A stretch of DNA of 55,188 nucleotides from an uncultured Actinomycetes bacterium (GTDB taxonomy: Bacteria > Actinomycetota > Coriobacteriia > Coriobacteriales > Atopobiaceae), in the NCBI GenBank assembly GCA_900313905.1, contig OMTG01000063.1:1-55188 (forward strand), written 5' to 3'. Each line of letters starts with the position of its first letter. Positions within the stretch are counted from its first letter, which is position 1. Position numbers and translations under genes: made by a program. The notes below the pieces were generated by a model. It searched no databases, was not told the DNA's origin, and was given only the letters and a program-made list of their open reading frames with translations. This document shows positions 35,399-48,530 of this stretch, piece by piece.

Positions 35399-36379
35399 AT
35401 GCGAGCGAGCATGAACCTTTCCCAAGCCATAGAGCATGCCAATTCCTCTGTGTTCCCCGGCTTCCTTGTCGGCGACGCCGCCCTGGAAGAGGAGCGCCAC
35501 AAGAACGAGGAGGCGCTCTCTGTGCTCATCGATGCCTGGCAGACATCCCCTGAAGGCTCGGAGCCCTTCCCCTTCGATATGATCCGGAGGCTTGCCGACC
35601 GCAACCGCGAGATCTGCGACCTCTATGGGGCAGAGCGGCTCCGGGAGGAGAGCACCGTCACGCTGCCCCGCGGCCTTACGAACCATGACCTGATACACGG
35701 CGTCGCCGTGCTCCAAGGCAGGACCGATGCTGAGGTGGAGCGCACTGCCCGCAAGGACCTGCGCGATCTTGGCATCGCCTACCAGGAGGCGCCGGTCTCT
35801 GGCATGATTCTGGGGATTGATATCGAGACGACGGCCCGCGACCCTGCACGCGGCTACATCGTGAATGTCGGCCTCGAGTTCATGTACATGGGCCCGAAAT
35901 CGAAGCCGAACAATGGGCATGCCGCCTATTTCGGCATCCCCGAGATGTACCGGGAGAAGGGCGTGCCCCTTGAGGATGTCCACCACATCTCCTGGAAGGA
36001 CCTCGAAGGGAAGACCCCTTTCCGCGAGGCGCATGATGCGCAGAAGGCCCTCCTCACGATCCTCACGCGCTATCCCTTCATGGCGCACAATGCCGCCTTC
36101 GAGAATGCCTGGTTCACGCTCCATATCGACGGATACGCAGAGGCGAAGAAGGCGGGCAGGGTCTCCCCCATCGACACCCGCGACATCTGCCGCCGCTGCG
36201 ATCCCGATGTCAGGAATCTCCCGAGGGAATCGCATCCTGCTGCGCTTGAATCCTGGGCACGGCGCCGCAAGGTCCTGAAGAAGTCCCAGAAGGAGCGCCA
36301 TCTCGGCCTCGAGGATGTGGACCTCATGTTCAAGACCGTCCAGGCAGAGTTCAAGGAACGCGGCATGTTCCCCGCATAG
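35399..36379 (+). CDS. DnaQ-like 3'-5' exonuclease superfamily protein
   Basis: The 326-residue protein has an unrecognised helical N-terminal ~130 residues and a DnaQ-like domain at about 140-315. ExoI reads GIDIETTARDP. The ExoII segment reads HNAAFENAWF, with Glu where the family usually has Asp. ExoIII is probably RHLGLEDVDLM, keeping His and Asp. It may be an active exonuclease with altered metal binding or a degenerate one. Start codons at 35399 and 35411 are both possible; neither has a strong ribosome site. It is monocistronic, with a terminator after the stop. Confidence 0.7.
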   Translation: MRASMNLSQAIEHANSSVFPGFLVGDAALEEERHKNEEALSVLIDAWQTSPEGSEPFPFDMIRRLADRNREICDLYGAERLREESTVTLPRGLTNHDLIHGVAVLQGRTDAEVERTARKDLRDLGIAYQEAPVSGMILGIDIETTARDPARGYIVNVGLEFMYMGPKSKPNNGHAAYFGIPEMYREKGVPLEDVHHISWKDLEGKTPFREAHDAQKALLTILTRYPFMAHNAAFENAWFTLHIDGYAEAKKAGRVSPIDTRDICRRCDPDVRNLPRESHPAALESWARRRKVLKKSQKERHLGLEDVDLMFKTVQAEFKERGMFPA

Positions 36380-36549: not shown

Positions 36550-36789
36550 TTACTCCTGCCAGGCCTTTGCCTCAGCCTCGGAGATCGGATGGATGTCCTC
36601 GCCGTCAGCGTACGGGGACTCGGTGCCGCCGACGCCGTGCAGGAAGTAGAAGCCGGAGCGGTTCTTGAAGAGGGACTCCTCGTAGCCAGCTGCATCGCCG
36701 AACTCGCCGATCGTCTTGTGGCCGATCTCGGTGGACTTCTCGGTGTCGTAGCTGTGGCGCTTGCCCTCGAACGTCATGGTCTTGCGCAT
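36550..36789 (-). CDS. Small protein of a type seen on integrative elements (79 aa)
   Basis: The product begins MRKTMTFEGKRHSYDTEKST and carries SGFYFLHGVGG and EAEAKAWQE. From memory this resembles small proteins of conjugative elements of Firmicutes and relatives (an N-terminal YDT segment, a central FFLHGxGG, a C-terminal AxxWAE). Their function is not known. AAAGGAG lies six bases before the ATG. The upstream region is AT-richer than its surroundings and full of CTCGAC palindromes, one of them placed between possible promoter elements. Acquisition by transfer is likely. Confidence 0.7.
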   Translation of the reverse strand: MRKTMTFEGKRHSYDTEKSTEIGHKTIGEFGDAAGYEESLFKNRSGFYFLHGVGGTESPYADGEDIHPISEAEAKAWQE

Positions 36790-36832
36790 ATCAAACTCCT
36801 TTCAAATGTCAACTAATTTTCCGTCAACTGTT

Positions 36833-37043
36833 CTCGACAGTAGGTATAATACTCAACTCGACATGTCGAGCAAATCACAGCTGTCATTTCTGCAGGTATT
36901 TCACAGTATGTTCAAATAACTCGACACCCAGCTCGACATCCGAAACATGAACGCAATGTGTAGTCGACCAGATGACCTGTCGGCAGACGGCAAAGGCGCT
37001 CTCAAGTCGACACGTCGAGTTCGCAGACTCGACACCTGTCGAG
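36833..37043. repeat. Array of CTCGAC/GTCGAG palindromes and half-sites
   Basis: The 356-bp gap between the 79-residue gene and htpG has no convincing gene. It holds the palindrome CTCGACATGTCGAG (36857-36870), a near copy GTCGACACGTCGAG (37006-37019), a spaced copy CTCGACACCTGTCGAG (37028-37043) and half-sites at 36833, 36920, 36932 and 36963. On the minus strand the first palindrome lies just upstream of a TATTAT -10-like element, a typical repressor position. The array reads as a multi-site operator for an unidentified protein. Confidence 0.7.
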
Positions 37044-37085
37044 CAGATTGCGACGAATGCAGCAAGCACACGCACGAATGGCATG

Positions 37086-37117
37086 AAAAATGCCGGTCCC
37101 GCACAGCGGGGCCGGCA
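37086..37117 (-). terminator. Terminator after htpG
   Basis: Twelve-base arms (one G-U or mismatch) around a 3-base loop, followed by TTTTT on the minus strand, 29 bp after the htpG stop. Confidence 0.85.
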
Positions 37118-37145
37118 CATTGAGGAGCTTTCAGCAGCCTCTTCC

Positions 37146-39119
37146 CTACTCCATGAGCTGGGTGACTTCGGATGCGAAGGCGACCGGATCGTCGATGGGC
37201 AGGCCTTCGACCAGGAGCGCCTGGTCGTAGAGGATGTGTCCATAGAGCTTGAGGCGATCCTTGTCCCCAGCCTTCTCGGCTGCGACCAGCTTGCCGAAGA
37301 CCGGATGGGCGGCATTGAGCTCGAGGACGCGCTGCGCCTTCGGGGCATTCTCCGCCTCAGGGCCCTGGGCGATGACACGCTCCATCTCAAGCGAAACGGG
37401 ACCTTCTGCGCTGATGCGGGCAGGGGCATCCTTGAGGCCTGCCGCTGCCGTGACATCGGTGACCTTGTCGCCAAGCGCCTCCTTCATGTCCTTGAAGAGA
37501 TCCTTGTTCTCGTCTGCGACCTTCTTCGCCTCGTCCTTCTCGTCCTCGGTCGCGAAGTCCACATCCTTGCTGGAGACATTCACGAACTCGAGGTCGCGGG
37601 CCTCGGTGCCCTTGTTCTCGGAGTCGCCTGCCTTGCCCTCGACGTGGTAGGTGCGCATGACCTGGAACATGAACTCGTCCACATCCTGCGTGCAGAGGAT
37701 CACGTCGTAGCCATGGCTGAGCGCGCTCGAGACGACCGGCATCTTCTTCAGGCGGTCGCGCGACTCGCCAGCAGCGTAGTAGATCTTCTCCTGGCCTTCC
37801 GGCATCGCATCGACATATTCCTTGAGGGTCACATACTTGTCCTGCTTGACCGACCAGAAGAGCAGAAGGTCGGCAAGCTCATCAGCCTTCGATCCATAGG
37901 AGCTGTAGATGCCGAACTTGAGGCCACGGCCGAAGTTCTCGAAGAACTTCTCATAGGCCTCGCGGTCGTTATCGCGCATGTTCTCGAGCTCAGAGGTGAT
38001 CTTCTTCTCGACACGGCGGGCAATGGCACGCAGCTGCGCATTCTGCTGCAAGGTCTCGCGGGAGATGTTGAGCTTCACATCGGGCGAATCCACGACGCCA
38101 CGGACGAAGTTGTAGTAGTCCGGCAGAAGGTCTGCGCACTTCTCCTGGATCAGCACATTGGAGCTGTAGAGCGCAAGGCCCTTCTGGTAGTCCTTGCTGT
38201 AGAGGTCGAAGGGCGCCTCGCTCGGGATGAAGAGGAGTGCGTCATAGGAGAGCGACCCCTCAGCATGGAAGCTGATCGTGCGGGCCGGCTTCTGCCAGTC
38301 ATGGAAGGTCGACGTATAGAACTCGTCGTAGTCCTTCTGCTCGACCTCGGAAGAGCGCTTCTTCCAGATCGGCGTCATCGAGTTCAGGGTCTCGAGCTCC
38401 TGGTACTCCTCGTACTCCGGCTTGTAGTCGTCGCCGGCATCCTCGGGCTTCGGCTTCTGGCGGCTCTTCGTCACCATCATCTGGATCGGATGGCGGACAT
38501 AGTTGGAGTACTTCTCGACGAGGTCGCGCAGGCCCCATTCGCTCAGGTATTTGTCGGTGTCCTCATCCTCGGTGGAGTCACGCAGATAGACGATCACATC
38601 CGTGCCGTGGTCGCCTTCGCCGTCACGCTCGCCCGGCTTCGCTGGCTCGACCGTGTAGCCGCTCACGCCGTCGGACTCCCAGGCATAGGCCGTATCAGAG
38701 CCGTAAGCACGGCTCACGACGCGGACCTTGCTTGCCACCATGAAGGCAGAATAGAAGCCGACGCCGAACTGGCCGATGATGTCCATATCGGTTCCCTGGT
38801 GCTCGGCATTCTCCTCCTTGAACTGCTCGGAGCCGGAATGGGCGATCGTGCCGAGGTTCTTGTCGAGCTCATCGGAGGTCATGCCGATGCCATTGTCGGA
38901 GACCGTGACCGTGCGGGCATCCTTATCGAAGGAGAGCCTGATTGCGAGCGAGCTCTGGTCGACTGTGATGTCCGGGTTCGTGAGGCTCTCGAAGCTCAGC
39001 TTGTCGATAGCGTCTGAGGCGTTCGAGATGAGCTCGCGCAGGAAGATCTCCTTGTTCGTATAGATCGAGTTGATCATCAGGTCGAGCAGCTTCTTGCTCT
39101 CTGTCTTGAATTGCTTCAT
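37146..39119 (-). CDS. htpG: Molecular chaperone HtpG (Hsp90)
   Basis: The 657-residue protein is a full-length bacterial Hsp90. The N-terminal ATPase has LRELISNASDAIDKL (Glu/Asn site), VSDNGIGMT and the lid segment IGQFGVGFYSAFMVA. The middle and C-terminal dimerisation domains follow. It assists folding of client proteins during heat or oxidative stress. The upstream region contains an AT-rich ATATATAA patch but no recognisable CIRCE or HAIR element. It appears monocistronic. Confidence 0.97.
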   Translation of the reverse strand: MKQFKTESKKLLDLMINSIYTNKEIFLRELISNASDAIDKLSFESLTNPDITVDQSSLAIRLSFDKDARTVTVSDNGIGMTSDELDKNLGTIAHSGSEQFKEENAEHQGTDMDIIGQFGVGFYSAFMVASKVRVVSRAYGSDTAYAWESDGVSGYTVEPAKPGERDGEGDHGTDVIVYLRDSTEDEDTDKYLSEWGLRDLVEKYSNYVRHPIQMMVTKSRQKPKPEDAGDDYKPEYEEYQELETLNSMTPIWKKRSSEVEQKDYDEFYTSTFHDWQKPARTISFHAEGSLSYDALLFIPSEAPFDLYSKDYQKGLALYSSNVLIQEKCADLLPDYYNFVRGVVDSPDVKLNISRETLQQNAQLRAIARRVEKKITSELENMRDNDREAYEKFFENFGRGLKFGIYSSYGSKADELADLLLFWSVKQDKYVTLKEYVDAMPEGQEKIYYAAGESRDRLKKMPVVSSALSHGYDVILCTQDVDEFMFQVMRTYHVEGKAGDSENKGTEARDLEFVNVSSKDVDFATEDEKDEAKKVADENKDLFKDMKEALGDKVTDVTAAAGLKDAPARISAEGPVSLEMERVIAQGPEAENAPKAQRVLELNAAHPVFGKLVAAEKAGDKDRLKLYGHILYDQALLVEGLPIDDPVAFASEVTQLME

Positions 39120-47777: not shown

Positions 47778-48530
47778 ATGCAGCAGGACAGGACAAGCAC
47801 CAGCACAGACGGCCTCATGAAGCCTTCTGCCTGCCCCTTTGGAGACTGCGCCTACAGCTCGGATGGTGCGACCTGCATGGACCACATCCGCCTCTTTGCC
47901 GATCTTCCCCTCGACGCCAAGCGTGCCCTCTCAGAGCGTGCCTCCCATGACAGCTACCCCAAGGGCGCGATCCTCGTGCATGAAGGGGATACGATCGACT
48001 CGATCCTGATCGTCCGCCGCGGACGCATCAAGACCTTCCGTACCGATGCGAATGGCGAGGAATATGTCCTCGATGTGCTCCATGATGGACAGGCGATATG
48101 GCATGGGATGTTCCTCAAGGACCATGCCTACCACTACTCGGTCGCCTGCCTCACGAAGGTCGAGCTCTGCCGCATCCAGCGCAAGGACTTCGAGGCCCTC
48201 ATCGCCGAGCACCCCGATGTGGCCCTGAACCTCATCCAGATGCTTGGCACCGAGCTCGACGATGCAGAAGAGAAGATCATGATGCTCGGCATCCGCGACC
48301 CAAAGCGCCGCCTCGCAGAATATCTCCTGCATCGAGATGAGCGCTGCATCAACCGCGAGATCAACCTCAAGCTCGAGGACATCGCAGCATCGGTGGGCCT
48401 TCGTCCCGAGACGGTATCGCGCATCCTCTCCGCCTTCGAGCGCGAAGAGCTCGTCAAGCGTCTGGGACGTGGCCGCCTCAAGGTGCTCGACCGGGCAGGC
48501 CTCCAGACCATCGGCCTCGAGCAGGGCTGA
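47778..48530 (+). CDS. FNR/CRP-family regulator with possible Fe-S ligands
   Basis: The 250-residue protein has a cyclic-nucleotide-like sensor barrel (about 37-150), a dimer helix and a winged helix with RPETVSRILSAFE (about 215). Cys19, Cys24 and Cys33 at the N-terminus (C-x4-C-x8-C), with Cys124 in the barrel, resemble the four Fe-S ligands of FNR, with different spacing. It is therefore a candidate oxygen or redox sensor. GAGGAGG supports the start. It lies only 31 bp after the helicase gene, so co-transcription is possible, and a matching FNR-like site lies before pflA about 700 bp downstream. Confidence 0.9.
   Translation: MQQDRTSTSTDGLMKPSACPFGDCAYSSDGATCMDHIRLFADLPLDAKRALSERASHDSYPKGAILVHEGDTIDSILIVRRGRIKTFRTDANGEEYVLDVLHDGQAIWHGMFLKDHAYHYSVACLTKVELCRIQRKDFEALIAEHPDVALNLIQMLGTELDDAEEKIMMLGIRDPKRRLAEYLLHRDERCINREINLKLEDIAASVGLRPETVSRILSAFEREELVKRLGRGRLKVLDRAGLQTIGLEQG

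Follow-up and report, generated by a model that had tools for sequence, protein, structure and literature searches.

Clusters of DnaA boxes outside oriC are known in Bacillus subtilis (DBCs) and in E. coli (datA/DARS), and the usual form of the DnaA recognition helix is GGRDHTTV. The 0A-box of Spo0A reads TGTCGAA, and regulators of the OmpR/SARP type as well as BldC bind to direct repeats. The immunity repressors of cluster A mycobacteriophages (L5, TipsytheTRex) act at stoperators, which are asymmetric sites of about 11-13 bp placed in short intergenic spaces (PMC9283540). The array analysed in the present study occupies positions 36833-37043 of the window (the whole stretch of 55,188 nucleotides) and shares some features with each of these systems. 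It was interpreted as a cluster of sites bound cooperatively by one genus-restricted protein, which would likely repress the gene of a 79-residue (79-aa) protein and have further sites in a genome-wide network; the probability of this interpretation is put at about 0.6.

The source genome is designated G000, G015 and G043 are two other species of the same genus, and G054 belongs to another genus. The array lies in an island that spans from the 3' end of htpG to the start of the 79-aa gene, and the features of the locus are as follows.

35399-36379, plus strand: DnaQ-like 3'-5' exonuclease-type gene, next to the 79-aa gene in convergent orientation, with synteny kept in G015, G043 and G054
36550-36789, minus strand: gene of the 79-aa conserved small protein, presumed target, without a match to Pfam, NCBIfam or PHROG models
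36833-36840, plus strand: half-site CTCGACAG over roughly +1 to +7 of the transcript inferred for the 79-aa gene, kept in G015
36846-36851, minus strand: inferred -10 hexamer TATTAT, aligning with TAATAT (G015) and TATGAT (G043), with a poor -35
36857-36870, no strand: perfect palindrome CTCGACATGTCGAG in the -35/-10 spacer, formed by a head-to-head pair of half-sites with zero gap
36880-36916, minus strand: further conserved block TGAACATnCTGTGAAnnACCTGCA, which the alignment shows in G015 and, in part, in G043; probably the site of a different factor
36920-36938, plus strand: direct half-sites CTCGACAC and CTCGACAT, 12 bp apart
36963-36968, no strand: weak GTCGAC half-site
37006-37019, no strand: near palindrome GTCGACACGTCGAG, some 149 bp farther upstream than the promoter palindrome; the G015 counterpart is perfect and lies 141 bp upstream
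37028-37043, no strand: palindrome CTCGACACCTGTCGAG, inverted half-sites with 2 extra bp
37146-39119, minus strand: htpG (Hsp90), adjoining upstream and codirectional with the 79-aa gene

The 211-bp array contains eight copies of CTCGAC on either strand (starts 36833, 36857, 36865, 36920, 36932, 37014, 37028 and 37038), two of GTCGAC (starts 36963 and 37006), and three palindromic pairs. The preliminary description had reported ten copies of the 6-mer with one as GTCGAC; the total of ten held, and two of the GTCGAC form were counted. The perfect palindrome and its near copy, the AT-richer island and the unusual density, all of which it had reported, were found again. The GC content of the island (36817-37142) is 51.8%, against about 57-66% per kb (roughly 62%) across the window, and any 211-bp segment of the window apart from the array has at most 4 half-sites, compared to 8 in the array. 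In 5000 dinucleotide shuffles of the island the mean number of half-sites was 0.32 and the maximum 3, against 8 in the real sequence, and the mean number of palindromes was 0.004 against 3. The CTCGAC 6-mer is common in the coding DNA of the window (102 copies, 56 expected), so single copies are uninformative and it is the clustering and palindromy that count.

A terminator-like hairpin followed by a T run was seen by eye between htpG and the array, and as it separates the island from htpG, the island is best read as the promoter region of the 79-aa gene itself. The promoter scan of the region upstream of this gene gave no consensus sigma-70 promoter, the promoter being called solely from the conserved -10. 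When G000, G015 and G043 were aligned on this -10, the promoter elements were overlapped by sites at kept positions, and the offset of CTCGACATGTCGAG from the -10-like hexamer (TATTAT/TAATAT/TATGAT) was identical in the three species. The suggestion that one copy overlaps a possible promoter of the small gene is in accordance with the alignment, which sets CTCGACATGTCGAG between the poor -35 and the conserved -10. It had also been stated that no candidate regulator is adjacent, and none adjoins the array, either in the window itself or at the syntenic loci inspected in G015, G043 and G054. Elsewhere in the window, a complete Shango-type anti-phage operon (41694-47743, PADLOC and Pfam) with SngA (TerB domains), SngB (BrxC/D-like ATPase) and SngC (DEAD helicase) was observed, and a Crp/Fnr-type regulator gene (47778-48527) directly precedes the pfl activase gene and pflB.

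The array was traced by comparing the 500 bp upstream of each 79-aa homologue that was fetched. The array is kept upstream of the orthologue in G015 (the uncultured rumen Olsenella RUG014, whose 79-aa protein is 94% identical), G043 and G054, and the gene lies near htpG and the exonuclease gene in all four genomes. G054 carries three copies of the palindrome, two perfect and one with a single mismatch, in exact 21-bp steps; the three are found some 140-190 bp ahead of the ATG, outside the -35/-10 interval. More distant homologues revealed no array in the upstream 500 bp. Those of other genera at L033-L038 and L007 share a different upstream element, GCACATTRCGTG...TACGTTTCC, which is perhaps an older regulatory site. 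The comparison in close relatives that had been proposed as a check hence showed the array retained with the same small gene, and the whole-genome count of the 14-mer, also proposed, found CTCGACATGTCGAG once in G000 even when one mismatch was allowed.

The 79-aa family occurs in 25 of the 61 genomes drawn from the host family and also in Clostridia MAGs. The protein is predicted to form a six-stranded sheet with a C-terminal helix (AlphaFold pLDDT 88.6, confident), and no confident homologue of the fold was obtained among solved structures (Foldseek best E 0.5; VIA best Z 5.2). The 79-aa gene has the strictest array, so its product could be considered to bind its own operator, and a weak likeness to the nucleic-acid-binding Borrelia Pur-alpha (3nm7) was noted (phmmer E 1.3; Foldseek probability 0.66, E 0.6; VIA Z 4.2). 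These matches are at noise level, however, the family is widespread without the sites and the protein has no known DNA-binding domain, so that such autoregulation is very unlikely. The viral scan with the 79-aa protein gave no relative. Remote homologues were found on a few plasmids and in one archaeal virus, and the 14-mer itself is present in 44 viral contigs. A phage or plasmid origin was rejected on the negative viral scan, the remote plasmid and archaeal virus homologues being judged to have no bearing on it.

The preliminary description had proposed a multi-site operator of cooperatively binding repressors or of a partition/replication protein. The operator part is supported by the retention of the array in relatives of the genus; the 14-mer as unit was given up. 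Fifteen further family genomes match it exactly, but these matches fall in coding-like DNA of high GC content, for the most part in one amidohydrolase-like stretch encoding LDMSS, and the only regulatory 14-mer sites are the four upstream ones. The 14-mer was not found in the literature searched, and general searches yielded analogies only. The recognition unit was derived by searching for pairs of CTCGACA in any arrangement, fetching the clusters and scanning them. From the comparison of these sequences, the unit appears to be an asymmetric 9-11-mer, (S)AACTCGACAGG, as a putative protein site, and the palindrome would be one arrangement of this half-site, since 21-bp direct and everted repeats occur elsewhere. 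The 11-mer AACTCGACAGG against its reversed control gave 10:1, 10:0 and 4:1 in the three species of the genus, and among the 137 other genomes of the family only G010 (3:0) possibly rose above background. The shorter form AACTCGACA was counted 27 times in G000, where its reversed control reached 10, and in G015 the two counts were 36 and 14. With the intergenic and coding split made by a simple hexamer gene model, the intergenic sites were 13 of the 25 outside the window plus 2 in the window for G000 and 22 of 36 for G015, and the sites in coding DNA were at background level in both.

The half-sites stand on a lattice of two helical turns (21 bp). Among the same-strand neighbouring pairs within 45 bp, 15 of 34 have a spacing of exactly 21 bp and 6 a spacing of 42 bp; there are 8 head-to-head pairs with zero gap and 3 tail-to-tail pairs with one base between, where the PWM was trained partly on the counted sites, so the pair counts lean its way, and the spacing was outside the training. 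The direct repeats at about two-helical-turn spacing, with the cooperative binding presumed here, resemble the arrays of OmpR/SARP-type regulators and BldC, but head-to-head and tail-to-tail arrangements are also present and no such regulator is linked. The TGTCGA core and the position of half-sites at promoters and near the origin recall the 0A-boxes of Spo0A, from which the array differs in its site TGTCGAGTT (reading TGTCGAG) and its actinobacterial lineage. Fortuitous or neutral repeats, for instance remnants of tandem duplication, could draw on the abundance of CTCGAC in a GC-rich genome. Such an origin is extremely improbable given that no shuffle exceeded 3 half-sites, that the lattice is kept with unrelated spacers, and that the half-sites are conserved against diverged flanks between G000 and G015; in four orthologous promoters the half-site columns are 69-100% identical and the remainder 50-59%.

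The distribution of the half-sites in the genus was then compared, using the names glgP, glmU, pyk, ldhD, rsmG and lysR as read from the protein sequences without a database match. Both G000 and G015 carry sites or clusters upstream of glgP, upstream of glmU, and between a transporter gene and a lysR-type gene, so that several target promoters (79-aa, glgP, glmU, lysR) are common to the two species. At glgP, with TATTGT taken as the -10-like element, about 45 bp separate the inferred start from the closest conserved half-site upstream of it. A DUF4012 gene has a cluster upstream in G015 and G043. Several clusters are limited to one species and some are 3' of genes: G015 has extra clusters, located 3' of a CoA-enzyme-activase gene and in the interval from an ldhD-type gene to pyk, and G043 has half-site pairs between convergent genes. 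In view of the clusters 3' of genes or between convergent genes, the term operator may not fit the whole network. By its anatomy the array at the 79-aa gene is an operator array, and it forms part of a small genus-specific network. The recurrence, the genus restriction and the 21-bp lattice together point to a putative binding-site network of a genus-restricted DNA-binding protein. A reading as RNA element was rejected, as the Rfam scan of the related cluster loci gave no relevant match and one tRNA only. The sites are like stoperators in being asymmetric, dispersed and intergenic, in promoters as well as between genes, and in that one factor would serve all of them. Unlike stoperators they are chromosomal and clustered on the lattice, and the stoperator rule that orientation follows transcription is violated, with both orientations present at the 79-aa, glgP and glmU regions. 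A LacI-type palindrome, GGAAACGTTTCC / GGAAGCGTTTCC, was observed adjoining the glgP promoter in both species (L127:6440-6780, L133:3678-4190). In another genus, five half-sites with GTGACTCGACA flanks were observed in a purine-gene region (L142:5209-5276, G032 C20).

In the rsmG-parA intergenic region of G000 and G015, half-site triplets lie among parS sites. This region is long at L129:1-1470 and L132:5263-6810, with several parS sites and 21-bp-spaced triplets, and in G015 it contains a repeated composite, TATGTCGAGTT...TACCTGTCGAGTT. The array network and parS/ParB have the region upstream of parA in common, but the half-site sequence is unrelated to parS (TGTTTCACGTGAAACA), which is separately present in L129/L132. 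The partition or replication alternative gains support from these triplets beside parS. The protein could on this account be a chromosome-organising or partition factor with a centromere-like or nucleoid-occlusion-like network, in which the 79-aa array is one position and effects on transcription are secondary; clusters that separate convergent genes or lie in 3' regions also agree with this. This account is nonetheless unlikely, because there are only a handful of clusters per genome, no parA cluster is present in G043 or in other genera, and the 79-aa palindrome keeps a fixed promoter position in three species.

Clusters next to parS, which in G015 are separated from dnaA by about 5 kb, also bring DnaA into consideration, the sites being then secondary DnaA boxes. 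A DnaA with an altered helix (GGRSHATV) would bind the AACTCGACA clusters outside oriC, for titration or for coupling of replication and transcription. Like the DnaA-box clusters, the sites are asymmetric intergenic 9-mers of flexible orientation with the TC.ACA core in common, and one array is near the origin and par genes; their core TCGACA is shared with the probable oriC box of the family, TTWTCNACA. The recognition helix was found to be GGR(S/T)HATV in 9 of 9 family genomes examined (L193:1475-3034, L194, L196, L197, L198, L199, L201, L206 and L208), departing from the usual form. This alteration is family-wide, whereas the arrays are genus-restricted and follow a regular 21-bp lattice. 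The two motifs are moreover kept apart, as the dnaA-flanking regions of five genomes have TTWTCNACA and no AACTCGACA, and the 13 array regions show the reverse. A DnaA paralogue as binder was rejected, since there is only one Bac_DnaA_C domain per genome. The different box beside dnaA and the single domain IV make DnaA quite an unlikely binder. The box flanking dnaA is TTWTCNACA and not TTWTNCACA, so a lineage-specific DnaA box is likely. Between rpmH and dnaA, a conserved gene of 340-410 aa (L193:206-1417) with HATPase_c and HVO_A0261_N matches was also observed at the same place in several genera.

Under the preferred interpretation, one sequence-specific protein of the Olsenella-like genus would read the asymmetric half-site (S)AACTCGACAGG. 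Its copies would bind cooperatively to adjacent half-sites along a single face of the helix, one every two turns (21 bp), and direct, head-to-head and tail-to-tail orders would all be accepted. Repression would be its likeliest role at the 79-aa gene, whose -35/-10 spacer contains the strongest half-site pair and whose start point lies under another half-site, a classical position for a repressor. The second cluster, about 141-149 bp upstream (G015, G000), may be bridged to the promoter by a loop. The same protein would act at the glgP, glmU and lysR upstream regions, at some 3' ends, and at the parS-containing region upstream of parA. The glgP half-site is in a position that would suit an activator, so the factor may act in both ways, and it may have a structural role too, given the sites that lie at 3' ends or within the parS region.

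To our knowledge, few transcription factors of rumen Coriobacteria have an assigned site. A code of several sites per genome that is readable by eye, conserved and confined to one genus would provide a handle for isolating such a regulator. The analysis also exposed the family-wide change of the DnaA recognition helix together with the changed box beside dnaA. It is conceivable, though doubtful, that a genus-specific protein reading one 9-mer on a two-turn lattice at parS/parA and at the glgP, glmU, pyk and small-protein promoters couples segregation or replication to carbon status, and we know of no factor with this function in this actinobacterial lineage. If one protein does serve both the par region and the carbon-storage promoters, the cell cycle of these bacteria would be linked to their metabolism.
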